A DNA stretch of 64,000 bases. It comes from Streptomyces xanthii (GTDB lineage: Bacteria > Actinomycetota > Actinomycetes > Streptomycetales > Streptomycetaceae). A model generated the notes under the pieces. The model was not told where the DNA came from and ran no database searches. It was given only the letters and a program-made list of their open reading frames with translations. Every line of letters starts with the position of its first letter. Position 1 is the stretch's first letter. The DNA lies in contig NZ_CP061282.1 in the NCBI RefSeq assembly GCF_014621695.1, forward strand, positions 248,001 through 312,000, read 5' to 3'. A program made the translations under genes and the position numbers. This document shows, piece by piece, positions 30,508 to 54,245 of the stretch.

Positions 30508-31527
30508 ATGGGATCCGAGTACGCGATCCATGCCGAGGACGTGCGCAAACGCTACGGTGACGCCCCCGCCCTGAGCGGATTCGACCTGCGGGTGCCGGCC
30601 GGTACCGTGCACGGCCTGCTCGGCCACAACGGGGCCGGCAAGACCACGGCCGTCCGCATCCTCGCCACGCTCGCCGGGCTGGACGGCGGTCGCGCCGAGG
30701 TCGCCGGCTTCGACGTCACCCGGCAGGCCGCTCAGGTCCGCTCCCGGATCGGGCTCCTCGGCCAGTACGCGGCCGTGGACGAGGTGCTCAGCGGGCGCCA
30801 GAACCTCGTGATGTTCGGCCGCCTGTTCCACCTCGGCAAGCAGGCCGCGGGACGGCGGGCCGACGAACTCCTCGCCCAGTTCGGCCTCGCCGACACCGGC
30901 GACAAGCAGGTCAAGGACTACTCGGGCGGTATGCGCCGGCGCCTGGACCTGGCCGCCAGCCTCATCCTGGCCCCCCGCGTGCTCTTCCTCGACGAGCCCA
31001 CCACCGGCCTGGACCCGCGCAGCCGCAACGAGGTCTGGGAGGCGGTGCGCTCGCTCGTCGACGGCGGCACCACCGTCCTGCTCACCACCCAGTACCTGGA
31101 CGAGGCCGACCAGTTGGCCGACTCCGTCTCCGTGATCGCCTCCCCGCGCGGCGAAGGCGGCCGGGTCATCGCCGAGGGCACCCCCGACCAGCTCAAGTCC
31201 GCCATCGGCGGCGACCGCATCGACATCACCCTGCGCCACGCCGCCGACCTCGGGACCGCCGCCGGCGTGCTCGCCTCGGTCACCGGACGCGGCGCCGACG
31301 TCGACGAGGACAACCGGCGGGTCGGCGGCCCCGTCGACGACCGGGTGGCTGCCCTGACCGGCGCCGCCCGCGCCCTGCAGGACTCCGGCATCGACGTCGA
31401 GGACATCGCACTGCGCCGTCCGACCCTCGACGAGGTCTTCCTGCACCTGACCGGCGAACAGCCCGCGGAGCAGACGGCAGAGCAGTCCGGGGAGCGCCCC
31501 GCGGACGAGAAAGAGGTGACGGTGTGA
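30508..31527 (+). CDS. daunorubicin-resistance-type ABC transporter ATP-binding protein (DrrA-like)
   Basis: 339 residues. Walker A GHNGAGKTT, signature YSGGMRRRLDLA, Walker B LFLDEPTTGLDP and switch His region TTQYLDEADQLAD, then the C-terminal DrrA-type extension (IALRRPTLDEVFLHLTG). Energises export of anthracycline-like compounds with the membrane partner whose GTG start overlaps this stop. Self-resistance by efflux is the expected role. Transcribed from the SARP-type promoter upstream. Confidence 0.96.
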   Translation: MGSEYAIHAEDVRKRYGDAPALSGFDLRVPAGTVHGLLGHNGAGKTTAVRILATLAGLDGGRAEVAGFDVTRQAAQVRSRIGLLGQYAAVDEVLSGRQNLVMFGRLFHLGKQAAGRRADELLAQFGLADTGDKQVKDYSGGMRRRLDLAASLILAPRVLFLDEPTTGLDPRSRNEVWEAVRSLVDGGTTVLLTTQYLDEADQLADSVSVIASPRGEGGRVIAEGTPDQLKSAIGGDRIDITLRHAADLGTAAGVLASVTGRGADVDEDNRRVGGPVDDRVAALTGAARALQDSGIDVEDIALRRPTLDEVFLHLTGEQPAEQTAEQSGERPADEKEVTV

Positions 31528-32357
31528 CCACCGCGACCACCACCCCGCAGAACACGTCCGGCGACGGCGGCTCGCTGCGCTGGGCCCTCGCCGACTCCTG
31601 GGTGCTCACCGGGCGTTCGCTCGCCCACTGGGCCCGCAACCCCGCGCCCGTCATCATCGGACTGCTCTTCCCGATCATGATGGTGCTGATGTTCGGCTAC
31701 CTCTTCGGAGGCGCCATGGACGTACCCGGCGGCGGCAACTACCGCGAGTTCCTCGTGCCCGGCATGTTCGCCATGACCATGGTGTTCGGCATCGAGGTCA
31801 CGATGCTCGCCGTGATCACCGACACCGCCCGGGGCGTCACCGACCGGTTCCGGGCCATGCCCACCTCGTCCGCCGCCGTCGTCACCGGCCGCAGCATCGC
31901 GGACATGCTCAACTCGGTCGTCGGCCTGAGCGTCATGATCCTGTGCGGCCTCGCCGTCGGCTGGCGTGCCCACGAAGGGTTCTCCCGCGCGCTCGCCGCC
32001 GTCGGCCTGCTCCTGCTGCTGCGCTTCGCCCTGCTCTGGGTCGGCATCTACCTCGGTCTCGTCTTCACCGACACCGCCGCCGTCACCGCCGTACAGACCC
32101 TGGTGTGGCCCCTGGGCTTCCTGTCCAACGCCTTCGTCTCGCCGGACACCATGCCGGGCTGGCTCGCCGCGATCGCCGACTGGAATCCGCTGTCGGCCAC
32201 CGGCACCGCCACCCGCGAACTGTTCGGCAACCCGGGCTGGCAGGGCAGCTCCTGGGCGGCGGAACACGCCATTCTTCTCGGAGTCCTGTGGCCCGCCGTC
32301 ATCTGTGCGATCTTCTTCCCGCTGGCGGTACGCCGCTACCAGAGCCTCGGACGCTGA
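31524..32357 (+). CDS. ABC-2 type permease (DrrB-like)
   Basis: 277 residues, GTG start overlapping the ATPase stop. About six transmembrane helices (IIGLLFPIMMVLMFGYLF, LSVMILCGLAVGW, LLLLLRFALLWVGIYLGL, ILLGVLWPAVICAIFF) and the motif REFLVPGMFAMTMVF found in DrrB and other drug exporters. Forms the membrane channel for the preceding ATPase. A hairpin follows the stop at 32374-32396. Confidence 0.96.
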   Translation: MTTATTTPQNTSGDGGSLRWALADSWVLTGRSLAHWARNPAPVIIGLLFPIMMVLMFGYLFGGAMDVPGGGNYREFLVPGMFAMTMVFGIEVTMLAVITDTARGVTDRFRAMPTSSAAVVTGRSIADMLNSVVGLSVMILCGLAVGWRAHEGFSRALAAVGLLLLLRFALLWVGIYLGLVFTDTAAVTAVQTLVWPLGFLSNAFVSPDTMPGWLAAIADWNPLSATGTATRELFGNPGWQGSSWAAEHAILLGVLWPAVICAIFFPLAVRRYQSLGR

Positions 32358-36712: not shown

Positions 36713-38215
36713 ATGTCAGGCGCAGCCAGTGCGGAGAGCGGGCGTACGCCCGCCGACGCGTTCCTCGCGCGGGCCCGCGCCCACCCGGACGCCATCGCGC
36801 TCGTGGGCCGGGACGGGGAGACCAGCTACGGCGAACTCCTCGCCCTGGCCGGCGCCGAGCGCCGGCGCGTCGCCGCGCTCGGCCTGCCGCCCGGCGAGCC
36901 GGTGGCCGTCGAGGCCACCAAGACGCCCGCGACCCTGGCCCTGCTCCTCGCCTGCCAGCTGGAGCGCCGCCCGGTACTGCTCACCTCGCAGAGTCTCGGC
37001 GCCGACGTGCGGGCCGCGCTCCACGAGCAGGCCGCGGTCCGCCACGTCCTCGAACCCGGGGCGGCGGACGGCGGCGCGGGCGCTGCGCCGACCGGCGGCG
37101 CCGCGGCGCCCGACGGCACGCCGCTGCTGCTGCTGACCACCTCCGGCTCCACCGGCACACCCAAGATCGTCCCGCTGACGGCCGACGCGATCACCGCGTT
37201 CACGCGCTGGGCCGCGGGGCACTTCGGCATCGGACCCGGCACCACGGTCCTCAATCACGCCCCCCTCAACTTCGACCTGTGCCTGCTCGACGTGTGGACC
37301 ACGCTCGCGCACGGTGGCCGGATCGTCCTCGTCGACCCGGACCGGGCCACCCGCGGCCGGTACCTGCTCGACCAGGTCGTCCGCCACCGGCCCGAGATCG
37401 TCCAGGCGGTGCCGATGTTCTACCGGCTGCTGGCCGACGCGGCCGACCGGGACGGCACCACCCTGCCGGGGGTGCGGCACGCCGTCTTCACCGGCGACAG
37501 CATGCCCGTGCCGCTGCTCGGCAGGCTCCCCGGCCTGCTGCCCGGGGCCCGGCTCAGCAACCTGTACGGCTGCACGGAGACCAACGACAGCTTCCTGCAC
37601 GAGGTCGTCGACCTCACCGTGCCCGCGCCCCTCGGCCGGCCGCTGCCCGGCGTGCAGGCCCTCGTCGTGACCCCCGACGGCCGCGTCCTGGACGGCCCCG
37701 GCAGCGGCGAACTGTACGTCTCCACCCCCTTCCAGAGCCCCGGCTACCTCGACCCCCGCGCCCGCGGCGCCGCCTTCGTGCCCGACCCGCGCGGCACCAC
37801 CGACGGCCGCTTCTTCCGCAGCGGCGACCTCGTGCACCGCGACGCCGACGGCCGCCACACCCTCCTGGGCCGCACCGACTTCCAGGTCAAGGTCCGCGGC
37901 GTGCGGGTCAACCCGCAGGAGGTCGAGCACGTCCTCCTCGCCCACCCCGGTGTCGCCGAGGCGGCCGTCCTCGCCCGGCCCGACCCCGTCGCCGGCCACC
38001 TGCTGCACGCCGTGGTGCGCCGCACCGGCGGCAGCGGCCTCGACAGCCTCGTGCTCCGCGGCCATCTGGCCCGCGGACTGTCGCGGGCCGCCGTGCCCGC
38101 CACCGTACGGATCACCGACGAGCCGCTGCCGCGCACCTCCACCGGAAAAGTCGACCGCGACCGCGTGCCCGTCGCGGCCCCCGAACCGACCCACCGCCCC
38201 AGCAAGGAGAGCTGA
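36713..38215 (+). CDS. free-standing adenylation enzyme (amino acid/carboxylate-carrier ligase)
   Basis: 500 residues; ATG 36713 with GGAGGG 9 bases upstream (an in-frame GTG sits 3 bases earlier). ANL-family motifs: LTTSGSTGTPK, NFDLCLLDVW, LYGCTETND, RSGDLVHRDADG, KVRGVRVNPQEVE and the terminal Lys in TSTGKVDRDR. The pocket starts D-L-L like the proline-activating PltF/CloN4 enzymes but then departs (Gln at the 278 position; Thr, Leu, Asp-Ser later), so proline is unlikely. Activates an acid and loads it on the carrier encoded 1 base after its stop. In kosinostatin work, from memory, a discrete adenylation enzyme and PCP make a tethered building block for the pyrrolopyrrole part; this gene is the counterpart. 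The substrate is not certain. Confidence 0.93.
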   Translation: MSGAASAESGRTPADAFLARARAHPDAIALVGRDGETSYGELLALAGAERRRVAALGLPPGEPVAVEATKTPATLALLLACQLERRPVLLTSQSLGADVRAALHEQAAVRHVLEPGAADGGAGAAPTGGAAAPDGTPLLLLTTSGSTGTPKIVPLTADAITAFTRWAAGHFGIGPGTTVLNHAPLNFDLCLLDVWTTLAHGGRIVLVDPDRATRGRYLLDQVVRHRPEIVQAVPMFYRLLADAADRDGTTLPGVRHAVFTGDSMPVPLLGRLPGLLPGARLSNLYGCTETNDSFLHEVVDLTVPAPLGRPLPGVQALVVTPDGRVLDGPGSGELYVSTPFQSPGYLDPRARGAAFVPDPRGTTDGRFFRSGDLVHRDADGRHTLLGRTDFQVKVRGVRVNPQEVEHVLLAHPGVAEAAVLARPDPVAGHLLHAVVRRTGGSGLDSLVLRGHLARGLSRAAVPATVRITDEPLPRTSTGKVDRDRVPVAAPEPTHRPSKES

Positions 38216-38216
38216 C

Positions 38217-38498
38217 ATGTCCGACACCGACACGACCCACGACCTGACCGCCGTCAAGCGGTTCGTGGTGGAGGAGTTCCTGCCGGACGTGAGCCCGCAG
38301 GACCTCGACGCCGACCTCGACCTCCTCGACGCGGGCGTCATCGACAGCCTCGGCCTGCTCAAGGTCATCGCCTGGATCGAGTCGACGTACGACATCGACA
38401 CCGACGACCTCGACCTCGACCCCGACGCCTTCCGCTCGGTCACCGCCATCGCCGCCTTCGTCGCGGACGCCCTCGCGCAGCGGGCCGGGGCGGCGTAG
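38217..38498 (+). CDS. discrete peptidyl/acyl carrier protein
   Basis: 93 residues, AAGGAG upstream of the ATG. Phosphopantetheine Ser about residue 44 in AGVIDSLGLLK; strongly acidic, four-helix length. It sits directly after the adenylation enzyme and should be loaded by it, carrying the substrate through the dehydrogenase, phosphoribosylation and cyclisation steps encoded next. It is distinct from the polyketide ACP at 28050. Confidence 0.95.
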   Translation: MSDTDTTHDLTAVKRFVVEEFLPDVSPQDLDADLDLLDAGVIDSLGLLKVIAWIESTYDIDTDDLDLDPDAFRSVTAIAAFVADALAQRAGAA

Positions 38499-38500
38499 CC

Positions 38501-39541
38501 ATGCACGACGCCCTGGTCACCCTCATCGGCGGCGACCGGCCGGTCGAGCGGGAGAGCTGGCGGTCCCTGTGGGACCGGCTCCACGACGGAGGACTGCGCC
38601 GGGGAGAGGCCGTGGCCCTGCTCGCCTCGCTGTCCACCGCACCTCCCCGGGCCGCCACGCTCACCGCGTTCCTCGACTCGCTCGACGAGCGCCGCCCCCC
38701 GCTGACCGTGCCCTTCCAGGACACCGTCAACATCGTCGGCACGGGCGGCGGCCCCCGCACCTTCAACATCTCCACCGCCGCCGCCCTGACCGCCGCCGCC
38801 ATGGGCGCGAGGGTCGTCAAGACCGGCTCGCGCGCCTACACCAGCGGCTGCGGCTCCCTGGACCTCCTCGAGATCCTCGGCATCGACCTCACCCGCTCCT
38901 ACGAGGAGACCGCCGAGGTGCTCGACCGCGAAGGCATCGCCTTCGCCGGTACCTTCGTCTACCCCGCCGAGATCGGCCTGCTCGCCCGCGCCGCGCTGCC
39001 CCTGGACCTGCGCGACATCGGCCGCTTCGTCAACGTCCTCGGCCCCTTCCTGGCCGGTGTCCCGGTCACCGCGCAGCTCACCGGCGTCTCCGACCCGAGG
39101 ATGCTGCCCGCCGTCCGGCAGGCGGCCGAGCACACGGCACGCCGCACCGGCCGCACCGTGTGGGTGTGCACCAACGACCTCGGCGCGGACGAGCTCCTGG
39201 GCATCGTCCCCAACCGCGTGCGCACCTACGAGGGCGGCGGCGAGGACGAGTTCACCCTGCGGCCCCAGGCGCTGAGCCTGAGCAGCGGCCACCTCGGCGA
39301 CCTCGCCCCGGTCACCACCGGCCGCGCCGACGTGGCCCGCCACTTCCTCGACCTGCTGCGCGGCGCCGGCGACCCCGTCGCCGAACAGGCCGTGTGCCTG
39401 AACGCGGCCGCGCTCGCCGTCGCCGGACGCCTCACCGCCGACTGGCACGCCGCCCTGACCGCGGCCCGCACCGCGATCCACGACGGCAGCGTCCACGGCC
39501 TGGTCGAGCGGCTGCGCACCCGGGCGGTGTCCGTTGTCTGA
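38501..39541 (+). CDS. anthranilate phosphoribosyltransferase paralog (TrpD-like)
   Basis: 346 residues. Clear TrpD family: VGTGGGPRTFNISTAA for the phosphoribosyl loop, then KTGSRAYTSGCGSLDLLE where true TrpD has KHGNR..SS..GSAD, so one substrate-site segment is altered. The metal-binding Asp-Glu pair (GADELLG) and the RTYEGGG segment are kept. In tryptophan synthesis it joins anthranilate to PRPP; here, with TrpF, TrpC and TrpA paralogs and no anthranilate synthase, it likely phosphoribosylates a different amine, in line with the ribose origin reported for the kosinostatin pyrrolopyrrole. Overlaps the next gene. Confidence 0.93.
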   Translation: MHDALVTLIGGDRPVERESWRSLWDRLHDGGLRRGEAVALLASLSTAPPRAATLTAFLDSLDERRPPLTVPFQDTVNIVGTGGGPRTFNISTAAALTAAAMGARVVKTGSRAYTSGCGSLDLLEILGIDLTRSYEETAEVLDREGIAFAGTFVYPAEIGLLARAALPLDLRDIGRFVNVLGPFLAGVPVTAQLTGVSDPRMLPAVRQAAEHTARRTGRTVWVCTNDLGADELLGIVPNRVRTYEGGGEDEFTLRPQALSLSSGHLGDLAPVTTGRADVARHFLDLLRGAGDPVAEQAVCLNAAALAVAGRLTADWHAALTAARTAIHDGSVHGLVERLRTRAVSVV

Positions 39542-40385
39542 CCGTCCCGGCTTCTTCGCCCGCCGCCGCCCCGGGCGGCCCGGCCTCGCCGTGTTCCTCA
39601 ACGCCGGCGACCCGCCCCTGGACCTGCTGCCCGACCTGCTCACCATGCTCGACGAGAACGACGTCGACTGCCTCGAACTGGCCGTGCCCTTCCCCGACTC
39701 CGTCACCGACGGCCCCGTCGTGCGCCGCTCGGCCCGCCGGGCCCTGGCCCACGACGTGACCGCCCGCGACGTCCTCGACGCGGTCGCCGCCGCCCGGCCC
39801 GCCCTGCGCCACCTGCGCGTCGCCCTGCTCGCCGACTGGAGCCACACGGTCAAGGGCCCCGGCCTGGGCGACTTCACCCGGTCCGTGGCCGACGCCGGCT
39901 GCGACGGCCTGCTCCTGCACGGACTGCCGCCGCGCGCCCGCGACCCGTACCTGGAGGCCGCCGCGCGCGCCGACCTGCCCGTCGTCACCACGTGCTACGC
40001 GGTGTCGGGGCCGAAGGTGCGGGCCGAGGCCGCGGCGCACGCCTCCGCCTATCTGTACCTCGTCGCCCACTACGGCCGCAGCGGCACCGGCGCTCCGCTG
40101 GACGAACGGCGCCTGGCCGAGGTCCTCGGCCCGCTCCAGGCCGACGCGACCGCCCCGGTCGCCGTGGGGTTCGGCGTCCGCACCGCCGCCGACATCACCC
40201 GGCTCGAAGGGCTCGGCGCGCACTCCGTCGTCGTCGGCAGTGCCGGTGTCGAGCGGATCGAACGGGCCCTCGCCGAACACCGCGACCCCGTCGAGGAGTT
40301 CGCGGCCTTCACCAGGGAGCTGCGCGGCGCCACACCCGCGTACCTCCCGTCCACCGCTGTCCCCGCCACTACGAAGGGAATCTGA
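39534..40385 (+). CDS. tryptophan synthase alpha paralog (TrpA-like) without TrpB
   Basis: 283 residues from a TTG start overlapping the TrpD-like stop by 8 bases. TIM barrel with the catalytic pair kept: Glu in CLELAVPF and Asp in TDGPVVRRS; phosphate-binding GRSGTG and GFGVRTAADI also present. A loop with HGLPP replaces the usual D(L/V)P. TrpA removes glyceraldehyde-3-phosphate from indole-glycerol phosphate by retro-aldol cleavage. No TrpB is nearby, so it should work as a free lyase, as in plant BX1, and release the C3 side chain from the bicyclic product instead of making tryptophan. Confidence 0.92.
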   Translation: MSDRPGFFARRRPGRPGLAVFLNAGDPPLDLLPDLLTMLDENDVDCLELAVPFPDSVTDGPVVRRSARRALAHDVTARDVLDAVAAARPALRHLRVALLADWSHTVKGPGLGDFTRSVADAGCDGLLLHGLPPRARDPYLEAAARADLPVVTTCYAVSGPKVRAEAAAHASAYLYLVAHYGRSGTGAPLDERRLAEVLGPLQADATAPVAVGFGVRTAADITRLEGLGAHSVVVGSAGVERIERALAEHRDPVEEFAAFTRELRGATPAYLPSTAVPATTKGI

Positions 40386-40387
40386 TC

Positions 40388-40762
40388 ATGATCGTGCGCA
40401 AGCTCGAGGACGTCACCAGCGTGGAGTGGGGCAACGGCCTCAGCCGCCGCTTCCTGACCCAGTCCGACGGCGTCGGCTACTCGGTCACCGACACCGTGGT
40501 CAAGGCCGGCACCAAGTCCCGCCTGGAGTACCGCAACCACCTGGAGACCTGCTACTGCATCGAGGGCAGCGGCGAGGTCGTCGACGAGGCGGGCAACTCC
40601 CACCCGATCACCCCCGGGACCCTCTACGCCCTGGACCGGCACGACGCCCACTGGCTGATCGCCAGCCCGCACGAGGACCTGCGCCTGGTCTGCGTGTTCA
40701 CCCCGGCCCTGCGCGGCGACGAGAAGCACAACCTCGACTCGCCCGACTTCTCACAGTACTGA
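40388..40762 (+). CDS. ectoine synthase-like cupin (EctC family)
   Basis: 124 residues with the full EctC pattern: VEWGNGLSRRF, YRNHLETCYCIEGSGEVVD, HPITPGTLYALDRHDAHW, LRLVCVFTPAL. Candidate iron ligands of ectoine synthase appear conserved (Glu53, Tyr80, His88 by my alignment). EctC forms a cyclic amidine by dehydrating N-acetyl-diaminobutyrate. There is no ectA, ectB or ectD here, and it sits inside the tryptophan-like operon. The pyrrolopyrrole of kosinostatin is a bicyclic amidine, so cyclising amidine formation is the natural proposal. An ectoine role is very unlikely in this context. Confidence 0.92.
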   Translation: MIVRKLEDVTSVEWGNGLSRRFLTQSDGVGYSVTDTVVKAGTKSRLEYRNHLETCYCIEGSGEVVDEAGNSHPITPGTLYALDRHDAHWLIASPHEDLRLVCVFTPALRGDEKHNLDSPDFSQY

Positions 40763-40793
40763 TCCCCCCGAGCGGACACCGAGCGGACATCCC

Positions 40794-41933
40794 ATGATCA
40801 AGTGGAGCACCGAGCAGCAGGCCCTGCGCGACGGCCTGGCCCCCTACCTGGACGAGCTCAACTCCGGGCACGTGGAACAGGACGAGGCCGCCGCCTTCCC
40901 GCACGACAAGTGGAAGCTGCTGGCCGGGACGGGCCTGCTGGGCCTGCCCTTCGAGGAGCGCCACGGCGGCCTCGGCCAGTCCCTGCCCACCACCATGTAC
41001 GTGCTGGAGGGGCTGGGGGAGGGCTGCCGCGACGCCGGTCTGAACTTCTCGGTCTGCACCCACCTGGCCAGTACCGGGGTGCCGCTGCAGCGCTTCGGCT
41101 CGCCCGGGCTCAAGGAGCGCTACCTGCCCGCCCTCTGCTCCGGTTCGCTGATCGCCGCCCACGCGATCAGCGAACCGGACAGCGGCTCCGACGCGCTCGC
41201 CATGCGCACCCGGGCCCGCCGCGACGGTGACAGCTGGGTGCTCGACGGCAGCAAGTCCTTCGTCAGCAACGGCCCCGTGGCCGACCTCATCACCGTCTAC
41301 GCCCGCACCAGCGACCGGCCCGGCCCGCTCGGCTACACCGCCTTCCTGGTCGAGCGCGACACACCGGGGCTGACCGTGGGCGCCCCGATCGCCAAGATGG
41401 GCCTGCGCACCTCCCCGCTGTGCGAGCTGTTCCTCGACGGGTGCCGCGTCCCGGCCGACCGGGTCCTGGGCCGGGTCGGCGGCGGCTACCTCGTCATGGA
41501 GTACGTGATGCGCTGGGAGATCCTGCTGACGTTCGTGGTGAACGCCGGCGAGATGCGCCACCGGCTCGACCGCTGCCTGCGGTACGCCAAGGAACGCGTC
41601 CAGTTCGGCCGGCCCATCGGCTCCAACCAGGCTGTCTCCCACCGCCTCGTGGACCTGCGCATCGGCGTCGAGAACTCCCGGCGCTGGCTCTACGACACCG
41701 GTGAGCGGATGGCGGCCGGCGAGAACGTCACCGAGGACATCGCCATCGCCAAGCTCGTCACCAGCGAGGCCAACGTGGCGTCCGCCCTGGCCGCGGTGCA
41801 GATCTTCGGCGGCAACGGCTACATGGCCGAGTACGGCATCGAGAAGGAACTGCGCAACGCGGTCGCCGGGACCATCTACTCGGGGACCTCCGAGACCCAG
41901 CGCAACCGCATCGCCGCCCTGCTCGGCCTGTGA
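40794..41933 (+). CDS. acyl-CoA dehydrogenase-like flavoprotein
   Basis: 379 residues, standard ACAD length. FAD/substrate segments HAISEPDSGSDAL, FVSNGPVAD, RVQFGRPIGSNQ and QIFGGNGYM. The usual C-terminal catalytic Glu (YEGT) is Ser here (IYSGTSETQR, about residue 363), but a Glu occurs in RWEILL (about 241), the position used by isovaleryl-CoA dehydrogenase and, as I recall, by carrier-bound prolyl dehydrogenases. It probably oxidises the substrate tethered to the carrier protein at 38217. The A-PCP-ACAD trio recalls pyrrole-2-carboxylate formation, but the adenylation pocket does not look proline-specific. Confidence 0.92.
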   Translation: MIKWSTEQQALRDGLAPYLDELNSGHVEQDEAAAFPHDKWKLLAGTGLLGLPFEERHGGLGQSLPTTMYVLEGLGEGCRDAGLNFSVCTHLASTGVPLQRFGSPGLKERYLPALCSGSLIAAHAISEPDSGSDALAMRTRARRDGDSWVLDGSKSFVSNGPVADLITVYARTSDRPGPLGYTAFLVERDTPGLTVGAPIAKMGLRTSPLCELFLDGCRVPADRVLGRVGGGYLVMEYVMRWEILLTFVVNAGEMRHRLDRCLRYAKERVQFGRPIGSNQAVSHRLVDLRIGVENSRRWLYDTGERMAAGENVTEDIAIAKLVTSEANVASALAAVQIFGGNGYMAEYGIEKELRNAVAGTIYSGTSETQRNRIAALLGL

Positions 41934-41971
41934 CGCCGGCCCCGCCGCCCCCGACGAAAGCAGAACGCCGC

Positions 41972-42652
41972 ATGTACCCCAACGCCCTGCGCCCCACCGA
42001 GTTCCTCGACCACGAGTCCGACGAGGTGCGTGCCTTCGTGGCCGCCGCCCTCCCCTCGGGCCCGGGCACCCCCACCGAGTCCGCGGTCGCGCTCTACCAC
42101 GCGGTCCGCGACGGCATCCGCTACGAGGTGTACGGCGCGGACCTGTCGCGCGAGGGACTGCGCGCCAGCCAGGTCGTGCGCGCCGGGTCCGGGATGTGCC
42201 TGCACAAGTCGGTGCTGTTCGCGGCGGGTTTGCGCTCGCTGGGCGTCCCGGCCCGGCTCGTGCTCGCCGACGTCCGCAACCATCTGGCCTCCGAGCGGCT
42301 CAGGGAGCTCGTCGGCGGAGACGTCTTCCACCAGCACGGACTGACCTCCGTTCATCTGGAGGGCCGCTGGGTCAAGGCGACCCCGGTGTTCAACAAGAAG
42401 CTGTGCCGGCTGTACCGGATGGCGCCGCTGGACTTCGACGGCACGGGCGACAGCCTGTACCACCCCTTCGACTCCGAGGGGCGCCGCCACATGGAGTTCC
42501 TGCGCTTCCACGGCGAGTTCGACGATCTGCCCTACGAGCGGATCCTGGCCGATCTGCGCGTCGCGCACCCGCGGCTGTTCGAGTCCGGCGACGCGACGGC
42601 GTTCGCCGCCGGGTCCCTGGAGGCCGACGCCGCGCGGACGGTGACGGCCTGA
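41972..42652 (+). CDS. transglutaminase-like (papain-fold) protein
   Basis: 226 residues from MYPNALRPTEFL. A GTG at 41930 overlapping the previous stop (GTGA) would add a Pro-rich leader of 14 residues, so the start is uncertain. Transglutaminase-core pattern: Cys in SGMCLHKSVLFAAGLR (about residue 76), His in HGLTSVHLEGRWVKATP and a later Asp. Such proteins act as amide-forming or amide-breaking enzymes, some moving acyl groups from carrier proteins to amines. In this operon it could release the tethered intermediate or form an amide. Exact role unknown. Confidence 0.85.
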   Translation: MYPNALRPTEFLDHESDEVRAFVAAALPSGPGTPTESAVALYHAVRDGIRYEVYGADLSREGLRASQVVRAGSGMCLHKSVLFAAGLRSLGVPARLVLADVRNHLASERLRELVGGDVFHQHGLTSVHLEGRWVKATPVFNKKLCRLYRMAPLDFDGTGDSLYHPFDSEGRRHMEFLRFHGEFDDLPYERILADLRVAHPRLFESGDATAFAAGSLEADAARTVTA

Positions 42653-43350
42653 TGCTGGTCAAGGTGTGCGGTGCCACGACCGAGGCGGAGGTGCGCGCGG
42701 TGGCCGGGGCCGGCACGGACCTCGTGGGCCTGTGGTGCGGCGTCCAGGGCGGCCCGCACGACCTCGCCGCCGACGAGGTGGCGCGGCTGGCCGGCGCCGC
42801 CCGCCGCACCGGCACGGTGGAACCGGTCCTGGTCACCTTCGGCAAAGACGCGGGCCGGCTGCTGTCCGTCGTGTCCGAGGCGGGCCTGTCCTGGGTCCAG
42901 CTGCACGGGTTCCAGCCGCCGTCGCTGGTGCGCCGGCTGCGCCGGGACGGGCCGCCGGGACTGCGGATCGTCAAGGTGCTGCACCTGGACCCGGCAGGGC
43001 GCTGCCTCCAGGGTCCGCTCGTCGCCGCGTACGAGCGGGCGGGCGCCGACCTCCTGCTGTTCGACACGGCGGCCGCCGACGGACGGATCGGCAGCACCGG
43101 GCTGAGCGCGGACCCGGCCGCGGTGCTCGACCTCGCGGCACGCACCACGCTGCCGTTCCTGCTCGCGGGCGGGATCGGCGCGCACAACCGCGACGATTTC
43201 GAGACGGTCCTCGACCATCCCCGGCTGCTCGGCATCGACGTGGACTCGGCGGCCCGGGGCCCGCTCGGCACGCTGGACGCCGAGGCGGCGAGTGCGGTGG
43301 TGCGGGCCTGGCGCGGCGAGCGGGGCGTGCGTGGGGAGGCCGCGGCGTGA
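42652..43350 (+). CDS. phosphoribosylanthranilate isomerase paralog (TrpF-like)
   Basis: 232 residues; its ATG shares one base with the preceding TGA. Catalytic Cys in LVKVCGATT and Asp in LLLFDTAAADG are both conserved, as are WVQLHG and the C-terminal phosphate-binding LLAGGI and GIDVDSA segments. TrpF carries out the Amadori rearrangement of the phosphoribosylated amine. Works after the TrpD-like enzyme; the GSG..FDW segment of true TrpF is altered (IGSTGLSADP), in keeping with a non-anthranilate substrate. Confidence 0.93.
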   Translation: MLVKVCGATTEAEVRAVAGAGTDLVGLWCGVQGGPHDLAADEVARLAGAARRTGTVEPVLVTFGKDAGRLLSVVSEAGLSWVQLHGFQPPSLVRRLRRDGPPGLRIVKVLHLDPAGRCLQGPLVAAYERAGADLLLFDTAAADGRIGSTGLSADPAAVLDLAARTTLPFLLAGGIGAHNRDDFETVLDHPRLLGIDVDSAARGPLGTLDAEAASAVVRAWRGERGVRGEAAA

Positions 43351-44051
43351 GCGCGGACTTCGCGGCCGCGCTGCGCGCGGCGGCCCGCCCGGTGGTCATG
43401 GAGGTCAAGCGCCAGGACGCCGACGGCCGGGAGCTGCTCGGCGGCCGTACGGTCGCCGAGGTCGTCGCCGCCTACGAGGCGGCGGGGGCGCCCTGCGTGT
43501 CGGTGGTCACGGGGCGCTGGTTCGGCGGCACCGAGGCGCTCCTCGCCGAGGTCGCGGCGCTGACCTCGCTGCCGTTGCTGCGCAAGGACTTCGTCACGAG
43601 CCGGGGCCAGCTGCGCCGCAGCCGGGAACTGGGCGCCTCCGCCGTGCTGCTGACGGCTCGTCTGCTGGCGGCCGGCACGCTGGAGCGGCTGACGGAGACG
43701 GCCCTGGAGCTGGGCCTGACCCCTTTCGTGGAGGTCGCCGACGCGGCCGAGGCGGCTGCCGTGCCGTACGGCGAGAGCTGTGTGGTCGCGGTCAACAACA
43801 AGGACATCGCCACGGGGGAGCGGGGTGCGGGCGATCTGACGCGTGGTCCGGCCCTGCTGCCGGCGGTGCGGGCGACGGGGACCGGGTGCGCGGTCAGTGC
43901 CAGCGGTATCGACGGTCCGCGCACGGCGGCCGGTCTGCTGGACGCCGGGTTCGACGGACTGCTGATCGGGACCGGACTGCTGACGGCGGGCAGCCTGCCG
44001 GAGTGGATCGCGCGGTTCGACCGGGCCCGCAAAGGCGGGCCCGGTCGCTGA
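43347..44051 (+). CDS. indole-3-glycerol phosphate synthase paralog (TrpC-like)
   Basis: 234 residues, GTG overlapping the TrpF-like stop. The active-site residues are present: VMEVKRQDADG (Glu, Lys), LLRKDFV (general-acid Lys), FVEVAD, VNNKDI and SASGI. True TrpC has KRASPSKG where this has KRQDADG, so the substrate's aromatic end differs. It would close the second ring from the Amadori product, with or without decarboxylation. Last gene of the nine-gene operon; the convergent membrane-protein gene ends 3 bases after its stop. Confidence 0.93.
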   Translation: MSADFAAALRAAARPVVMEVKRQDADGRELLGGRTVAEVVAAYEAAGAPCVSVVTGRWFGGTEALLAEVAALTSLPLLRKDFVTSRGQLRRSRELGASAVLLTARLLAAGTLERLTETALELGLTPFVEVADAAEAAAVPYGESCVVAVNNKDIATGERGAGDLTRGPALLPAVRATGTGCAVSASGIDGPRTAAGLLDAGFDGLLIGTGLLTAGSLPEWIARFDRARKGGPGR

Positions 44052-45717: not shown

Positions 45718-46581
45718 GTGACAGTACTGGTGACAGGCGCGACGGGATCCGTGGGCCGCCACGTGGTGGACCGGCTCCTCGCCGAGAACGTGACCGTGCG
45801 GGCACTCACCCGCGATCCCGCCGCGGCCCGACTGCCCGCACAGGCCGAGGTGTTCGCCGGAGACCTCACCGACCCCGCGAGCGTCACCGACGCCCTGCGC
45901 GGCGTCGACAAGCTCTACCTCTTCCCGGTCCCCGAGACCGCCCGCGAGATCGTCGCCGCCGCCCGTGACGCCGGCGTCCGGCACATCGTCGTGCTCTCCT
46001 CCTCGTCCGTCCTCGACGAGTCCGGCGACAACCACAGCGGCGAACACCACCGCGCCGTGGAAGAGGCCGTCCGCGCCTCCGGCCTCACCTGGACCTTCGT
46101 ACGCCCCGACGAGTTCGCCACCAACGTCCTGTGGAAGTGGGGACACTCCGTCCGCGCCGAGGGCGTCGTCCGCGCCCCTTACGGAGACGCCCCCCGCGTC
46201 CTGATCCACGAGAAGGACGTCGCCGCGGTCGCCGCCGCCGCACTCCTCGACGACGAACGCCACGCCGGCCAGGCCTACGTGCTCACCGGCCCCGAGGCCA
46301 TCACCCAGCGCGACCAGGTCGCCGCCATCGCCGCCGCCGTCGGACAGCCCGTCGCCTTCGAGGAGATCACCCCCGACCAGGCCCGCGAACAGATGGGCCG
46401 GGCCATGCCCGCGCCCGTCGTGGAGATGGTCCTCGGCTACCTCGCCGACGCCGTCGCCCACCCCCCGACCCCCGTCGACACGGTGGAGCGGATCACCGGC
46501 CGCCCCGCGCTGACCTTCGCGCAGTGGGCCGCCGACCACGCCGACGCCTTCACCCCGCAGACCACGAGGACCGCCGCATGA
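45718..46581 (+). CDS. NmrA-like NAD(P)-binding reductase
   Basis: 287 residues, GTG start with GAGG upstream. Atypical short-chain dehydrogenase: VTVLVTGATGSVGRHV nucleotide loop, GDLTDPASV, and a long C-terminal domain (TFVRPDEFATNVLW, VLTGPEAITQRDQ) typical of NmrA/quinone-reductase QorB-like proteins. Reduces or binds quinone-type intermediates with NADPH. First gene of a three-gene set with a quinone oxidoreductase (ATGA overlap) and a SnoaL-fold protein. In nogalamycin, a pair of an SDR-like protein (SnoaW) and a SnoaL-fold protein (SnoaL2) hydroxylates C-1; a similar pairing is possible here but not provable by eye. Confidence 0.9.
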   Translation: MTVLVTGATGSVGRHVVDRLLAENVTVRALTRDPAAARLPAQAEVFAGDLTDPASVTDALRGVDKLYLFPVPETAREIVAAARDAGVRHIVVLSSSSVLDESGDNHSGEHHRAVEEAVRASGLTWTFVRPDEFATNVLWKWGHSVRAEGVVRAPYGDAPRVLIHEKDVAAVAAAALLDDERHAGQAYVLTGPEAITQRDQVAAIAAAVGQPVAFEEITPDQAREQMGRAMPAPVVEMVLGYLADAVAHPPTPVDTVERITGRPALTFAQWAADHADAFTPQTTRTAA

Positions 46582-47630
46582 GCGCCCCCGCAGGAACCGA
46601 GACCACCCACCGCGCCCGCACCGGCCGCGCCGTCCGGATGACCGGCAGCGGCGAGCCCGAGCAGCACATCGAGACGCACGCCACCGACCGGCCCACCGCC
46701 GGCCGCGGCAAGGTCGTCGTCGAGGTCGAGGCCGCCGGCGTCTCCTACGCCGAGGTGCAGATGCTCCAGCATCTGCACCCCTTCCCGCCCCGCTTCCCCT
46801 TCGTCCCCGGCTACGACCTCGTCGGCCGGATCGTCGAGGTCGGCGCCGGCGTCACCGGGTTCGCGAACGGCGACCGCGTCGCCGCCATGCCCCGCTACGG
46901 CGGCTGGCAGACCCACGCCGAGATCCCCGCCGCCTGCCTGGCCCACCTGCCCGAGGACCTCGACGCCGCAGAGGCCGTCGCCCTGGTCACCAACGGCGTC
47001 ACCGCCTGGCAGATGCTCCACCGGCTCACCGACGCCGCCCCCGGCGACACCGTCCTCGTCCACGGCGCCAGCGGCGGCGTCGGCTCCGTCCTGACCCGCA
47101 TCGCCGTCCACCACGGCCTGCGCGTCATCGGCACCGCGTCGCCCGCCAAGCACGACGCCGTACGGGACATGGGCGCCGAACCCCTCGACTACCGCACCCC
47201 CGACCTGCCCGCCGCCGTCCGGCAGTTCGCCCCCGACGGCGTCAGCGCCGTCTTCGACCACATCGGCGGCAAGGGCCTCGACGACAGCTGGAAGATACTC
47301 GCCCCCGGCGGCACCCTCGTCTCCTTCGACTCCTCCGTCGCCGGCTACCGGCCCGGCCAGTGGTTCCGCCCCCACCTGCCCGCCCTGCGCCGCAGCCTCA
47401 CCCGTGCCCTCGCCCGCCTCCTGGGCCGCACCGGCGGCCGCCGCATGCGCATGTACTACGTCAAGCCCGGCAAGAACTTCGCCGCCGACCTCGCCACCAT
47501 GTACGACCTGCTCGGCCAGGGCGTCCTGCGCCCCGAGATCGCCGGCCGCCTCCCGCTCGACGACGCGGCCCGCGCCCTGCGCGAGCTCCTCGACGGCCGC
47601 GCGGTCGGCAAGTACGTCCTGATCCCCTGA
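46578..47630 (+). CDS. zinc-less quinone oxidoreductase, MDR superfamily
   Basis: 350 residues; ATG overlaps the preceding stop (ATGA). Medium-chain dehydrogenase/reductase: N-terminal GroES-like domain (VPGYDLVGRIVEVG), nucleotide loop GASGGVGSVLTRIA and the C-terminal LPLDDAARALRELLDGRAVGKYVL. It lacks the catalytic zinc Cys and is therefore of the NADPH:quinone reductase kind. Likely reduces a quinone or enone of the polyketide or manages redox cycling. Operon member with the flanking genes. Confidence 0.93.
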   Translation: MSAPAGTETTHRARTGRAVRMTGSGEPEQHIETHATDRPTAGRGKVVVEVEAAGVSYAEVQMLQHLHPFPPRFPFVPGYDLVGRIVEVGAGVTGFANGDRVAAMPRYGGWQTHAEIPAACLAHLPEDLDAAEAVALVTNGVTAWQMLHRLTDAAPGDTVLVHGASGGVGSVLTRIAVHHGLRVIGTASPAKHDAVRDMGAEPLDYRTPDLPAAVRQFAPDGVSAVFDHIGGKGLDDSWKILAPGGTLVSFDSSVAGYRPGQWFRPHLPALRRSLTRALARLLGRTGGRRMRMYYVKPGKNFAADLATMYDLLGQGVLRPEIAGRLPLDDAARALRELLDGRAVGKYVLIP

Positions 47631-47644
47631 GAGGAACCACCGAC

Positions 47645-48106
47645 ATGACCGCCACACAGGCCGAGCCGGCGATCCCCGCCGCCCCCACCGTCCAGCAGCG
47701 CAACAAGCAGATCGCCCTCGACTGCGCCGCCGCCTGGAACCGCTGGGAACTGGACGGCATCCTGGAGCACTGGGCGCCGGACATCCGGCACTACTCCGAG
47801 GACCGCCAGGTCGACACCCAGCAGATGATCGGTGCGATGAAGGGCGGCCTCGCCGCCTTCCCCGACCTCCACCTGGACGTCAAGAGCGCCGTCGCCGAGG
47901 ACGACCGCGTCATCCTGCGCATCACCGTGGACGCCACCCACCTCGGCGAGTTCATGGGCAAGGCCCCCACGGGCAAGAAGGTCACCTGGTACATGCTCGA
48001 GGAGCTCCGCTTCGACGCGGACGGCAAGATCATCGAGCACTACGACGTCTTCAACTACCTGCCCATGCTCAAGGAACTGGGGTTCGTGCCGTCCGACGAC
48101 CAGTGA
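47645..48106 (+). CDS. SnoaL-fold protein (polyketide cyclase/hydroxylase-like)
   Basis: 153 residues, GAGAGGA before the ATG. NTF2/SnoaL fold: NKQIALDCAAAWNRWELDGILEHWAPD, TGKKVTWYMLEELRFD and the terminal KIIEHYDVFNYLPMLKELG. The Asp of true SnoaL cyclases (HRDW) is not at the matching site (EHYDVFN), so its chemistry may differ, for example hydroxylation as in SnoaL2. Third gene after the NmrA-like and quinone oxidoreductase genes. Two hairpins follow, separating it from the convergent aromatase gene. Confidence 0.88.
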   Translation: MTATQAEPAIPAAPTVQQRNKQIALDCAAAWNRWELDGILEHWAPDIRHYSEDRQVDTQQMIGAMKGGLAAFPDLHLDVKSAVAEDDRVILRITVDATHLGEFMGKAPTGKKVTWYMLEELRFDADGKIIEHYDVFNYLPMLKELGFVPSDDQ

Positions 48107-48255: not shown

Positions 48256-49218
48256 CTACGCCGCGCTCTCCGCGAACGCCTTGGCCAGGTTCAGCGTCGC
48301 CGTGCTGTTGCGGCCCAGCGCCTCGCGCACGTAACCACGCGCCCGCGCCACGTCCGCACCCTCGCCCAGCACCCGCTCGATCGGCTCCTCGCGCAGCACC
48401 ACACTGTGGTGCGACGTCGCGACGACGCCACCGCCCTCGGCCGGCACGACCGTCCAGCGGCCCGTGTGCGCCGCCATCAGAGCGGGCGTCTCCGTCTGCT
48501 TGTAGACGATCCGCCGGTCCTCGGGGAAACACACCCGCACCGACTCGGTGGTGTGCACCGACCCGTCGGCGGTCCGCGTGTCCATCGCCATCACCTGCAC
48601 GCCCGGCTCGTCCTCGGTCAGCTCGAGCCGGTCCACGTGCGCCACCCGCTCCGGCCACTTGCCGGCCTGCTCCAGGAACGCGTACACCCGCTCCGCGGGA
48701 CCGTCGATCCGCACGGAGTCCTCGAAGGACAGCACCAGGCCCTCCAGAGCACGCCAGCCGGACACCAGAGTCCGCAGGTTCTCCAGCTCCTTGCGGCTGT
48801 TGGAGTCCGTGGCCCGCTCGACCCACTCCACGTCCGCCGGATCGTCACCCACGACCGTGAAGTCGTGCAGCAGCGTCAGCCGCGAACGCTCGGGACCCAG
48901 CTCGGTCACGATCCACGAGCCGCCCATCGACTCCACCGGAGCCGCCGACACCTCCTGACGGAAGTCGATCCGCCGCGCCGACGGATCCAGCACACGGCGC
49001 GAAGCCCACGACTTCACCTGCCCGTTGGCCGTCGCCCACATCCGCAGCCGCTCGGTCGTGCCGTCGGACTCCAGCTGCTCCACATGCACGTTCGGCGGGA
49101 AGAACAGCGGCCACCGGGCGGTGTCCGCGACGATCCCGTACACCACGTCGGCCGGGGCGTCGGCCTCCACCTCGTGAACGGTGCGGTGCACCCGCCCGCC
49201 CGTCTCCTCGTTCGACAT
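48256..49218 (-). CDS. didomain polyketide aromatase/cyclase
   Basis: 320 residues, GGAGGGG upstream of the ATG. Two SRPBCC (START-like) domains in tandem: first about 10-150 (VHRTVHEVEADAPADVVYG, WPLFFPPNVHVEQ, SWIVTELGP), second about 165-315 (SFEDSVRIDGPAERVYAFLEQ, WPERVAHVDRLE, GRWTVVPAEGGG). This is the didomain ARO/CYC type acting with a C-9 ketoreductase on reduced decaketides to form the first ring (ActVII, DpsF, AknE1). It lies 19 bases after the ketoreductase gene, in the same operon. Confidence 0.96.
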   Translation of the reverse strand: MSNEETGGRVHRTVHEVEADAPADVVYGIVADTARWPLFFPPNVHVEQLESDGTTERLRMWATANGQVKSWASRRVLDPSARRIDFRQEVSAAPVESMGGSWIVTELGPERSRLTLLHDFTVVGDDPADVEWVERATDSNSRKELENLRTLVSGWRALEGLVLSFEDSVRIDGPAERVYAFLEQAGKWPERVAHVDRLELTEDEPGVQVMAMDTRTADGSVHTTESVRVCFPEDRRIVYKQTETPALMAAHTGRWTVVPAEGGGVVATSHHSVVLREEPIERVLGEGADVARARGYVREALGRNSTATLNLAKAFAESAA

Positions 49219-49237
49219 CGGACTGTGTCCCCTCCGG

Positions 49238-50023
49238 TCAGAAATTGCCGAGTCCGCCGCAGACGTTCAGCGCCTGCGAGGTGATGGACGACGCGAGATC
49301 GGTCGTCAGATAGCCGACCAGGCCCGCGACCTCCTCCGGCGTCGCGTAGCGGCCCAGCGGGATCTTCGCCGTGAACTTCGCCATCACGGCCTCCTCCGAC
49401 GTCTCGTACGCGGCCGCGTAACCGGCCCGCACCTTCTGCGCCATCGGCGTCTCGACATACCCCGGGCACACCGCGTTCACGGTGATGCCCGTCGGCGCCA
49501 GCTCGTTGCCCAACGCCTTCGTGAAACCCACCACGCCGTGCTTGGACGCGGAGTACGGGGCGCCGAGCACCACACCCTGCTTGCCCGCCGTGGACGCGAT
49601 GTTGATGATCCGGCCGTAGGCGGCGCCCTCCATGCCGCCCTTCTTCAGCACCTCGCGCGTCAGCAGGAAGACGCTGTTCAGGTTCGTGTTGATGACGTCG
49701 AACCAGAGGTCGTCGTCGATGTCGGCGGTCACACCGCCACCGCTGCGGCCGGCGTTGTTGACCAGCACGCTGATCGGGCCGAACGCGGCCACCGCGGCGG
49801 CGACCAGCGCCGTCACCGACTCACGGTCGCGCACGTCGGCCGCGGTGCCGTCGGCCTCGATGCCCTCGCTCCGCAGCTGAGCCACCGTCTCGGCGACCTT
49901 CTCGGGCGTACGCGCGCACAGGAACACGCGATGGCCGCGGCGCCCCAGGTCGCGTGCGACAGCCAGGCCGATGCCGCTCGTGGCACCGGTGACCAGCGCC
50001 ACCGGGTTCGTGGGTGCCGTCAT
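49238..50023 (-). CDS. polyketide ketoreductase, ActIII type (C-9 reduction)
   Basis: 261 residues, the length of ActIII. Nucleotide loop TGATSGIGLAVAR, NNAGRSGGG, catalytic Ser in NIASTAGKQG, YSASKHG (Tyr-x3-Lys) and the family hallmark PGYVETPMAQKVR. Reduces the C-9 ketone of the nascent poly-beta-ketone with NADPH, before the aromatase encoded downstream acts. First gene of a minus-strand operon, transcribed from a SARP-type promoter at 50055-50097. Presence of this enzyme with a didomain aromatase is the standard reduced aromatic polyketide logic. Confidence 0.97.
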   Translation of the reverse strand: MTAPTNPVALVTGATSGIGLAVARDLGRRGHRVFLCARTPEKVAETVAQLRSEGIEADGTAADVRDRESVTALVAAAVAAFGPISVLVNNAGRSGGGVTADIDDDLWFDVINTNLNSVFLLTREVLKKGGMEGAAYGRIINIASTAGKQGVVLGAPYSASKHGVVGFTKALGNELAPTGITVNAVCPGYVETPMAQKVRAGYAAAYETSEEAVMAKFTAKIPLGRYATPEEVAGLVGYLTTDLASSITSQALNVCGGLGNF

Positions 50024-50108: not shown

Positions 50109-50151
50109 TCGAGGGTTTCTCGAAGAAGGCTCGATGTGCGGCGCCCACAGT
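50109..50151 (+). promoter_or_regulatory. three SARP-type repeats and -10 upstream of the 50198-52633 operon
   Basis: TCGAGGG (50109), TCGAAGA (50120) and TCGATGT (50131) repeat with exact 11-bp period; 8 bases later is CACAGT (50146-50151). Same geometry as the other sites in region B. About 47 bases before the GTG start. Confidence 0.7.
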
Positions 50152-50197
50152 GACGCGCAGCAGCCGCGTGCTGACCACCGACGAAGCGGAGAAGTCC

Positions 50198-50662
50198 GTG
50201 ACCATCCTGGCCGATCTCACGACCGCCGTACGGCTGCCCGCCGTCGAGTCCGCGGTCCTGCACGCCGAGGTCCAGCAGTTCTACACCCGCCAGATGCAGC
50301 TCCTCGACCTGCACCGCATCGAGGAGTGGGGCGAGTCGTTCACCGAGGACGCCACCTTCGCCCTGCCGATCCTGCCCGAGCCGGTCCGTGGCCGAGCCGA
50401 CCTCGTCTCCTCCACCCGCGCCAACAACGCCCGGCTCGTCGAGGCCAGGGAACAGCACCGCCACGTCGTCAGCATGCTCGACGTGCGCCCGCAGCAGGAC
50501 GCCACGGTGCAGGTGCGCTCCTACGTCGCCGTCTACGCCACCACGCTCGGCGAGGCCTCGCGCCTGCACCGGATGTGCGTCTGCGAGGACATCCTCGTGC
50601 GCGCCGCGGACGGACGACTCCAGGTCCGTACCCGCCTCGTCACCCGCGACGACCTGGCCTGA
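50198..50662 (+). CDS. SnoaL/ring-hydroxylating-dioxygenase-beta-like protein
   Basis: 154 residues, GTG start with GGAGAA upstream. NTF2-like fold: a long N-terminal helix (VQQFYTRQMQLLDLHRIEEW), SFTEDATFALP, and a strand-rich half (HVVSMLDVRPQQDATVQVRSYVAVYATT, RVRTRLVTRDDLA). Similar small proteins occur in aromatic polyketide clusters as cyclases, isomerases or auxiliary factors. No catalytic residue stands out. First gene of an operon driven by the SARP-type site at 50109, followed by a beta-lactamase-fold protein. Confidence 0.85.
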   Translation: MTILADLTTAVRLPAVESAVLHAEVQQFYTRQMQLLDLHRIEEWGESFTEDATFALPILPEPVRGRADLVSSTRANNARLVEAREQHRHVVSMLDVRPQQDATVQVRSYVAVYATTLGEASRLHRMCVCEDILVRAADGRLQVRTRLVTRDDLA

Positions 50663-50784
50663 CGCCCGCCGGCCCGACCGGCCTCCACCTCCGCTCCACC
50701 GCCTCCCGGCCGTGCCGCTACCGGCCGCGGGGACGCTGCCCGTACCCGCACCACCACGCCTTGTACCCATGGGGGTTTTCCGAC

Positions 50785-51864: not shown

Positions 51865-51871
51865 GGCCGTC

Positions 51872-52633: not shown

Positions 52634-52661
52634 GCGCCCCCTTCCCCGGCGACGAACGACG

Positions 52662-52704
52662 AAGGGCGGGGCCCACCGGATCCGATCCGGTGGGCCCCGC
52701 CCTT
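52662..52704. terminator. bidirectional hairpin terminator
   Basis: A 20-bp perfect stem (52662-52681 with 52685-52704) and a 3-base loop, between the convergent SDR and methyltransferase genes. Starts AAGGGC and ends GCCCTT. Confidence 0.92.
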
Positions 52705-52727
52705 TCGCGCGTCCCGGGTGAGGACCC

Positions 52728-54242: not shown

Positions 54243-54245
54243 GCC

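Follow-up and report, generated by a model that had tools for sequence, protein, structure and literature searches.

Showdomycin is made from 2-amino-1H-pyrrole-5-carboxylate by a nonribosomal peptide synthetase (NRPS)-type enzyme set and a PsuG-type C-glycosidase. Kosinostatin is reported to be formed from the substrates nicotinic acid and ribose (PMC5321127 and PMC8400222), and its genes are divided into a pyrrole-making group, kstB, and an annulating group, kstC (PMC7918784, Table 5). By the published model, an adenylation (A) enzyme loads nicotinic acid onto a peptidyl carrier protein (PCP), other kstB enzymes convert it to a pyrrole, and the TrpD, TrpF, TrpC and TrpA homologs of kstC annulate this pyrrole with phosphoribosyl pyrophosphate (PRPP). 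Here we describe a nine-gene operon, termed the cassette, within a 64,000-nucleotide stretch of Streptomyces xanthii DNA (the window; contig NZ_CP061282.1, positions 248,001 to 312,000), which is part of the 361,615-bp contig C2 and lies apart from the chromosome-sized contig C1 in a genome of 8.35 Mb. By sequence comparison the cassette belongs to the known kosinostatin-type pyrrolopyrrole operons, and it probably builds carrier-bound pyrrolo[2,3-b]pyrrole-2-carboxylate for an aromatic polyketide from a glutamine-derived ring and a ribose fragment.

The nine open reading frames (ORFs) were confirmed on the forward strand at 36713-44051 by an ORF check of the window, and the families found by Pfam scan agreed with all nine gene assignments (Table 1). 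A sequence-only reading of this DNA had described the genes as packed with overlapping or nearly overlapping stops and starts, and this was borne out by the ORF coordinates: gaps of 1 nt (A to PCP), 2 nt (PCP to TrpD), 2 nt (TrpA to EctC) and 31 nt (EctC to acyl-CoA-dehydrogenase-fold oxidase, ACAD) occur along with overlaps of 8 nt (TrpD/TrpA), 4 nt (ACAD/transglutaminase), 1 nt (transglutaminase/TrpF) and 4 nt (TrpF/TrpC).

The cassette was compared to the clusters of kosinostatin producers. Eight of its nine genes occur in the same order in Micromonospora okii TP-A0468 (locus L071; kst cluster), with gene-by-gene identities of 51-73%; by contrast to the window, M. okii has no transglutaminase gene. 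All nine are found in S. spiroverticillatus JCM 4609 (L010) at 55-84% identity, transglutaminase included, and this strain carries a version-B kosinostatin cluster (ksn) according to PMC13099267 (section 19). The same paper reports (section 18) that deletion of the TrpF homolog ksnC3 in S. albidoflavus abolished kosinostatin. The resemblance extends to the neighboring type II polyketide synthase (PKS) that the sequence-only reading had placed beside the operon, with ketosynthase (KS), second KS and acyl carrier protein (ACP) genes, and to many tailoring genes (Table 1). KS-alpha is 72% identical to its M. okii and 86% to its S. spiroverticillatus counterpart, and a homolog on C2 (at least 40% identity over 60%) was found for 32 of the 43 M. 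okii genes and 31 of the 37 S. spiroverticillatus genes examined. Taken together, the synteny and identity with kosinostatin producers, the KS-alpha identity and the ksnC3 deletion identify the operon as kosinostatin-type, as the sequence-only reading had proposed.

A pair of E1-like genes of the kosinostatin regions, named by eye and taken as octose-branching, had only 34-36% matches on C2. An RmlA family match and RmlB-like and dehydratase-like homologs were found. Sugar-gene homologs lie on this contig (22-43 kb of C2) at a distance of about 240-260 kb from the cassette, near 15.3-19.3 kb, where a glycosyltransferase-like match accompanies another type II KS/KS/ACP set. In view of the weak E1-like matches and the remote sugar genes, a kosinostatin-like aglycone that lacks the usual octose is plausible.

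Table 1. Genes of the cassette and neighboring genes with homologs in kosinostatin regions (window coordinates).
Feature	Position	Strand	Remarks
Stand-alone NRPS-type adenylation enzyme (A)	36713..38215	+	Related to L-prolyl-AMP ligases; pocket code D-L-L-A-F-G-L-D-S
Peptidyl carrier protein (PCP)	38217..38498	+	Pfam
TrpD-like phosphoribosyltransferase	38501..39541	+	Anthranilate-binding residues substituted
TrpA-like aldolase	39534..40385	+	TTG start; Glu49/Asp60 equivalents retained
Ectoine-synthase-like (EctC-like) cupin	40388..40762	+	Proposed early-acting cyclic-amidine former
ACAD, prolyl-PCP dehydrogenase type	40794..41933	+	
Transglutaminase/NAT-fold acyltransferase or thioesterase	41930..42652	+	GTG start, alternatively ATG at 41972
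TrpF-like isomerase	42652..43350	+	Catalytic Cys and Asp retained
TrpC-like synthase	43347..44051	+	Without N-terminal stretch of indole-3-glycerol-phosphate synthase
Type II PKS KS-alpha	25467-26732	+	86% to S. spiroverticillatus
Type II PKS KS-beta	26729-27994	+	78% to S. spiroverticillatus
Type II PKS ACP	28050-28313	+	65% to S. spiroverticillatus
ABC transporter pair	30508..32357	+	Homologs in M. okii kosinostatin region, 69/66%
NmrA-like, zinc-dehydrogenase/quinone-oxidoreductase-like and SnoaL-like genes	45751..48106	+	Common to both kosinostatin regions, 63-79%
Polyketide cyclase	within 48256..49927	-	56% M. okii, 71% S. spiroverticillatus
Short-chain dehydrogenase (SDR)	within 48256..49927	-	69% M. 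okii, only 29% S. spiroverticillatus
SnoaL-like (two), beta-lactamase-fold, SDR, methyltransferase, NmrA-like (two)	50150..55999	.	Kosinostatin-region homologs, 53-88% at best hit

That the cassette genes are spare copies from tryptophan and ectoine primary metabolism is scarcely credible, even though their Pfam and NCBIfam names suggest it and two of the proteins exceed NCBIfam cut-offs, TrpA that of the trpA equivalog (135.4 vs 102.35) and EctC that of its subfamily (144.4 vs 128). The trpD, trpF and trpC equivalog models score below cut-off on the cassette proteins, substrate residues are substituted as described below, and canonical copies are found on C1: TrpC at 262 bits vs 115 for the cassette copy, TrpD at 368 vs 148 and ectoine synthase at 181 vs 126. 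Primary-metabolism paralogs were rejected on the basis of these canonical copies and altered residues. The absence of TrpE, TrpG and TrpB claimed by the sequence-only reading likewise held, as E. coli queries for these three proteins and a TrpB-like query, each of which recovered itself as a control, gave no match at E 1e-3 within the window; matches to E. coli TrpE (34%) and TrpG (43%) lie at 86.9-89.0 kb of C2, distant from the cassette. No ectA or ectB was detected among the Pfam-scanned neighbors of the cassette. The cassette TrpF is the sole TrpF-family match of the genome, and no such match was found in 36 of the 41 genomes of the order that were searched. This rarity fits the use of PriA in place of TrpF by Streptomyces.

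Relatives of the cassette were collected by a scan of named genome contigs, which gave 114 pattern matches and 90 relatives; the 80 best of these relatives were retained. The complete core set of eight genes (A, PCP, TrpD, TrpA, EctC, ACAD, TrpF and TrpC) occurs in 71 of these 80 loci, and a transglutaminase gene is additionally present in 21. The eight-gene set has one order and strand in 68 loci, with L024, L025 and L066 rearranged, and thus the operon arrangement is not due to chance. Something is missing from the remaining nine (L007, L027, L040, L042, L045, L047, L051, L056 and L074), several of which are located on a short contig or close to the end of one. For the S. albogriseolus-type loci L007 and L040, the view that these are simply decayed cassettes was rejected, as a PCP-TrpD-EctC part (EctC about 85%) is located elsewhere in those genomes; the TrpF of L007 is split across two frames, and TrpC was not found in the 18 kb stretches read of either locus.

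Alignment of the TrpD, TrpF, TrpA and TrpC homologs revealed retained catalytic residues and altered substrate positions. In TrpD, all 80 rows have Thr/Ser in place of H307 and Ser/Ala in place of N309 of the E. coli KHGNR motif. All 31 canonical rows (E. coli itself and 30 from the order) have Arg in the column of E. coli R364, which is occupied in the 80 cassette rows by Ile (38), Val (26), Leu (9), Ala (6) and Thr (1). R364, H307, N309 and H354 are thus retained in none of the 80 rows and R358 in two. We take these residues, R364 chiefly, to be binders of anthranilate and its carboxylate. The Cys and Asp of TrpF are kept in 99% of 83 rows and the Arg36 equivalent is changed in 86%, with four canonical sequences for comparison, while Glu49 and Asp60 of TrpA are kept in 84 of 84 rows. 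For TrpC, with E. coli as sole reference, the E-x-K, K-D-F and E motifs are present in the rows read and N-N in most, the first ~35 residues are missing, Glu215 is lost (Ala in 99% of 80 rows), and A-S-P at 58-60 is mostly R-D-A, with Q-D-A in the window. The differences in TrpD and TrpC substrate motifs pointed out by the sequence-only reading are therefore real. As the changed residues are those taken to bind anthranilate, and chiefly its carboxylate, the pattern fits a substrate that has an amine and no ortho carboxylate, such as 2-aminopyrrole-5-carboxylate.

The other genes of the cassette were found to occur as a module of their own. Loci L122 and L123 encode A, PCP, EctC, ACAD and transglutaminase without TrpD, TrpA, TrpF or TrpC; their genomes (G003 and G008, the latter a 740-contig draft) have one canonical-like TrpD match each (36 and 33%). 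Plasmids of S. globosus and Burkholderia stagnalis carry the same five genes; a maleate-isomerase-like gene comes next in the former, and genes for a pseudouridine-phosphate glycosidase (PsuG; Indigoidine_A family) and a HAD phosphatase in the latter. To avoid selection by TrpA, an EctC alignment was used to search 392 Streptomyces genomes: 47 matched at E 1e-25, and 40 matched at 170 bits or above (a line of our own choice) in 52 places. Of these, 43 were examined; the nine left out were second copies or places in G167 (two), G302, G234, G314 and G373, and those of G327, G116 and G362. By this approach, 23 places were of the Trp type (not always with the full gene set in the stretch read) and 20 of the five-gene type, in which no TrpD, TrpA, TrpF or TrpC was detected beside EctC. 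Among 18 five-gene loci (L252-L269), a maleate-isomerase homolog occurs in 16 (at 29-30% in three), PsuG-family and HAD phosphatase genes in four, and TrpB-like and glutamate mutase genes in two (L253 and L254). At L122 (L122:11128-16242) the five-gene module is followed by TrpB-like, ATP-grasp ligase-like and glutamate-mutase genes.

Since EctC, A, PCP, ACAD and transglutaminase thus occur together without the Trp homologs in 20 of 43 places, EctC most likely acts ahead of the Trp steps and does not depend on them. The sequence-only reading had instead proposed a Trp-like annulation followed by amidine closure by the EctC-like protein as the last step. The location of the EctC gene after TrpD and TrpA in the operon agrees with such an order, which we nonetheless consider very improbable, both because of the five-gene loci, on account of which a final amidine-forming role of EctC was rejected, and because ring closure by TrpC requires a pre-existing aromatic amine. 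What is supported in that proposal, besides the kosinostatin-type operon, is a set of tryptophan-like annulation enzymes that retain their catalytic residues and an A enzyme and PCP in the same gene set.

Showdomycin-type pathways, as we understand their definition, have A, PCP, EctC-like, ACAD and transglutaminase genes in common with the window cassette, and the layout of the PsuG-bearing five-gene loci fits the showdomycin arrangement. By contrast to the Trp-type annulation enzymes of the window cassette, the five-gene loci have either a PsuG-family enzyme, which presumably attaches ribose as a C-glycoside, or none. A tblastn search at E 1e-3 with the B. stagnalis PsuG gave no match in the window or in the whole of contig C2.

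The enzymes of this first module were next compared to those of pyrrole formation on carrier proteins, in which discrete A, PCP and flavin dehydrogenase trios (RedM/O/W, PltF/L/E, AnaB) convert prolyl-PCP to pyrrolyl-PCP. The cassette resembles these trios in its discrete proteins and its ACAD active-site pattern, and differs in having an extra EctC-like enzyme and Asp-Ser for Val-Cys in the A pocket. Positions 235, 330 and 331 of this pocket (PheA numbering, as we take it to apply) are Asp, Asp and Ser in all 78 enzymes of the Trp type and all 22 of the five-gene type (L122 and L123 counted with the latter, the window row apart), and thus both groups probably load the same start acid. Val-Cys is found at 330/331 in three of four pyrrole-type A enzymes (two RedM-like and L127; L126 is unaligned there), and the top structure matches of a RedM-like A query were solved L-proline-carrier ligases. 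The cassette ACAD scored 361 bits with the PigA and 357 bits with the RedW model of NCBIfam (next model, 248), below both of these prolyl-carrier dehydrogenase equivalog cut-offs (500 and 650, respectively). Glu242 and Ser363 are present in 85 of 85 cassette rows and in 5 of 5 RedW-like proteins, of which two pass the family cut-off, and nine of nine generic ACADs have Gly and Glu at these positions. The catalytic Glu of the cassette ACAD is thus at the RedW and not the generic position. The EctC-like proteins retain Glu53, Tyr80 and His88, which align with what we take to be the metal ligands of ectoine synthase, and share W14, C55 and D86 between cassette and five-gene forms and not with the four true-EctC-like sequences compared. 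Ectoine synthase can convert glutamine to the cyclic amidine 5-amino-3,4-dihydro-2H-pyrrole-2-carboxylate (ADPC). Cys90 of the transglutaminase is invariant in 19 aligned sequences, and its structural model speaks to the general fold only (TM to query 0.35-0.44; six matches at E <=0.001).

These features bear on the start acid. The nicotinate model draws on the reported nicotinic acid and ribose substrates, on the kstB/kstC grouping and on the finding that deletion of kstB7, the deformylase of this route, lowered production (PMC7918784, section 2.6). We judge it unlikely. Asp235, which speaks for an alpha-amino acid as A substrate, is kept in 81 of 81 rows, by contrast to the code PLPAQGVVNK of nicotinate-tolerant aryl-acid A domains given in PMC8400222. 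Beyond the eight core genes, no gene family within 10 kb was found in more than 47 of 80 rows (with families cut at 38% identity, so that a diverse family could be split), and hence no conserved ring-contracting enzyme was seen. In addition, another producer's cluster has no kstB7 according to PMC7918784, and the same A pocket, EctC and ACAD occur at loci without detected Trp genes. Nicotinate as the start acid, which the sequence-only reading took from the literature, is doubtful in view of Asp235, the prolyl-ligase-like A enzyme and the lack of a conserved ring-contracting enzyme; what is disputed here is the published model, and no error was made in reading the DNA. A two-part pathway in which another acid (proline, a proline-like or a gamma-amino acid) is loaded and EctC makes the amidine would agree with the kinship of the ACAD and A enzyme to prolyl-carrier enzymes. 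This possibility appears improbable, more so than the nicotinate model, as Asp330-Ser331 in place of Val-Cys in all 78 and 22 A domains makes plain proline unlikely and EctC is left without an obvious substrate.

Analysis of these enzymes indicates that EctC, A, PCP and ACAD most likely make carrier-bound 2-aminopyrrole-5-carboxylate from glutamine. In the glutamine pathway, the EctC-like cupin would close L-glutamine, free or carrier-bound, to ADPC, and the A enzyme would load the cyclic amidine (or glutamine) onto the PCP. The prolyl-PCP-dehydrogenase-type ACAD would then take two electrons to give 2-aminopyrrole-5-carboxyl-S-PCP. TrpD may add phosphoribose to the exocyclic amine and TrpF perform the Amadori rearrangement, after which TrpC would close the second ring on the adjacent C-H carbon, without decarboxylation because no ortho carboxylate is present. 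TrpA would finally release glyceraldehyde-3-phosphate, and the acyl group may be removed from the carrier by the transglutaminase-fold protein, or by a ketosynthase in other clusters. The published kstB/kstC split agrees with the two halves proposed here, and the start acid alone differs. A glutamine-derived aminopyrrole with ribose annulation would depart from the published kosinostatin mechanism and is backed by the independent occurrence of the first half-module. The glutamine route is also the simpler one, in that each conserved enzyme would keep its ancestral chemistry, and the two models predict label patterns that could be separated by one feeding experiment.

Several points weigh against the glutamine pathway. 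Its substrate, carrier tethering and step order are those that we infer from sequence, whereas the published model names nicotinic acid and ribose as precursors and the kstB7 deletion lowered production. The TrpA and EctC scores exceed the cut-offs of the models noted above, support for the cassette clade in an ACAD tree is weak (0.29), and the cassette of Actinokineospora auranticolor (L074:10500-10900) proceeds from TrpA directly to ACAD with no EctC, in a genome with only a 40% EctC match.

The neighbors of the cassette were counted over 80 rows (79 loci plus the window, L025 having no gene calls). A MaoC-like dehydratase gene is present in 43 rows (within L015-L085), 35 of which have MaoC, ketosynthase and alpha-oxoamine synthase genes. 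In this orphan cluster family of Streptomyces and other actinobacteria, MaoC and usually beta-ketoacyl-ACP synthase (KAS) and alpha-oxoamine synthase genes are ahead of the cassette, and KASIII, SDR and Streptomyces antibiotic regulatory protein (SARP) genes are all present in 18. Members of the family are expected to have this double ring as part of other scaffolds. NRPS genes with a Glu/Leu-dehydrogenase-like gene occur in 6 rows and a UbiD-type decarboxylase gene in 12. In six rows (L014, L021, L058, L062, L074 and L080), a TrpB-like pyridoxal phosphate enzyme gene is inserted between the transglutaminase and TrpF genes, in each case with UbiD downstream and in L021, L058 and L074 also with UbiX; the one TrpB-like protein tested matched TIGR01415 (601 bits vs a cut-off of 519). 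These six loci may encode a complete route to an amino acid isosteric with tryptophan, and are predicted to yield such a tryptophan look-alike.

Genomes with two cassettes displayed complementary gaps in the stretches read. In G210, L232 is without TrpC and L239 without TrpA and TrpF, L230 and L241 of G167 are likewise complementary, and in G281, L236 is without A and TrpF beside a full L231. This complementarity suggests a single common building block. We incline to the broader view that the quinocycline/kosinostatin pyrrolopyrrole is derived from L-glutamine and PRPP, not nicotinate, by a showdomycin-type module joined to a captured tryptophan pathway, that the carrier-bound bicyclic amidine is a general building block in at least four cluster classes (type II PKS; ketosynthase/MaoC/alpha-oxoamine synthase; NRPS; and UbiD, in part with a TrpB-like enzyme), and that the TrpB-bearing ones make a tryptophan isostere amino acid. 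PMC13099267 had already noted a wider distribution for the NRPS module than for the intact cluster, and the distribution alone is thus not new.

Additional relatives were observed on replicons of other bacteria. An Aliiroseovarius crassostreae plasmid (L195) encodes transglutaminase, EctC, two ketosynthase-like proteins, ACAD, A, ACP, TrpD and TrpC, with no TrpF or TrpA in the stretch read. EctC relatives of 54-60% (L194, L196, L198 and L199) are located on Rhizobium, Gloeothece, Sinorhizobium and Mycetohabitans replicons near PKS, halogenase, transporter or NRPS genes; cassette TrpD, TrpA, TrpF and TrpC were not found in the stretches read.

The window also carries, on the reverse strand at 2785-24830, a hybrid NRPS/PKS gene, a separate acyltransferase gene and genes for two DUF6039 proteins. 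Together with an NRPS region at 168-228 kb of C2, which has MbtH-like, dehydrogenase-E1-like and aminotransferase-like genes (named by eye), this part resembles a streptogramin supercluster. The version D kosinostatin cluster of S. pristinaespiralis, described in PMC13099267 (sections 18-19) as lying in a 210 kb supercluster, likewise combines kosinostatin-like genes and large NRPS/PKS genes on a single replicon; its record is absent from the 80 loci of our survey, and the operon of the window may even belong to this cluster. A cysteinyl-tRNA synthetase-like gene is located at 56200-57597 (+), near PKS genes, and a rifampin ADP-ribosyltransferase-family gene at 62582-62992 (-).

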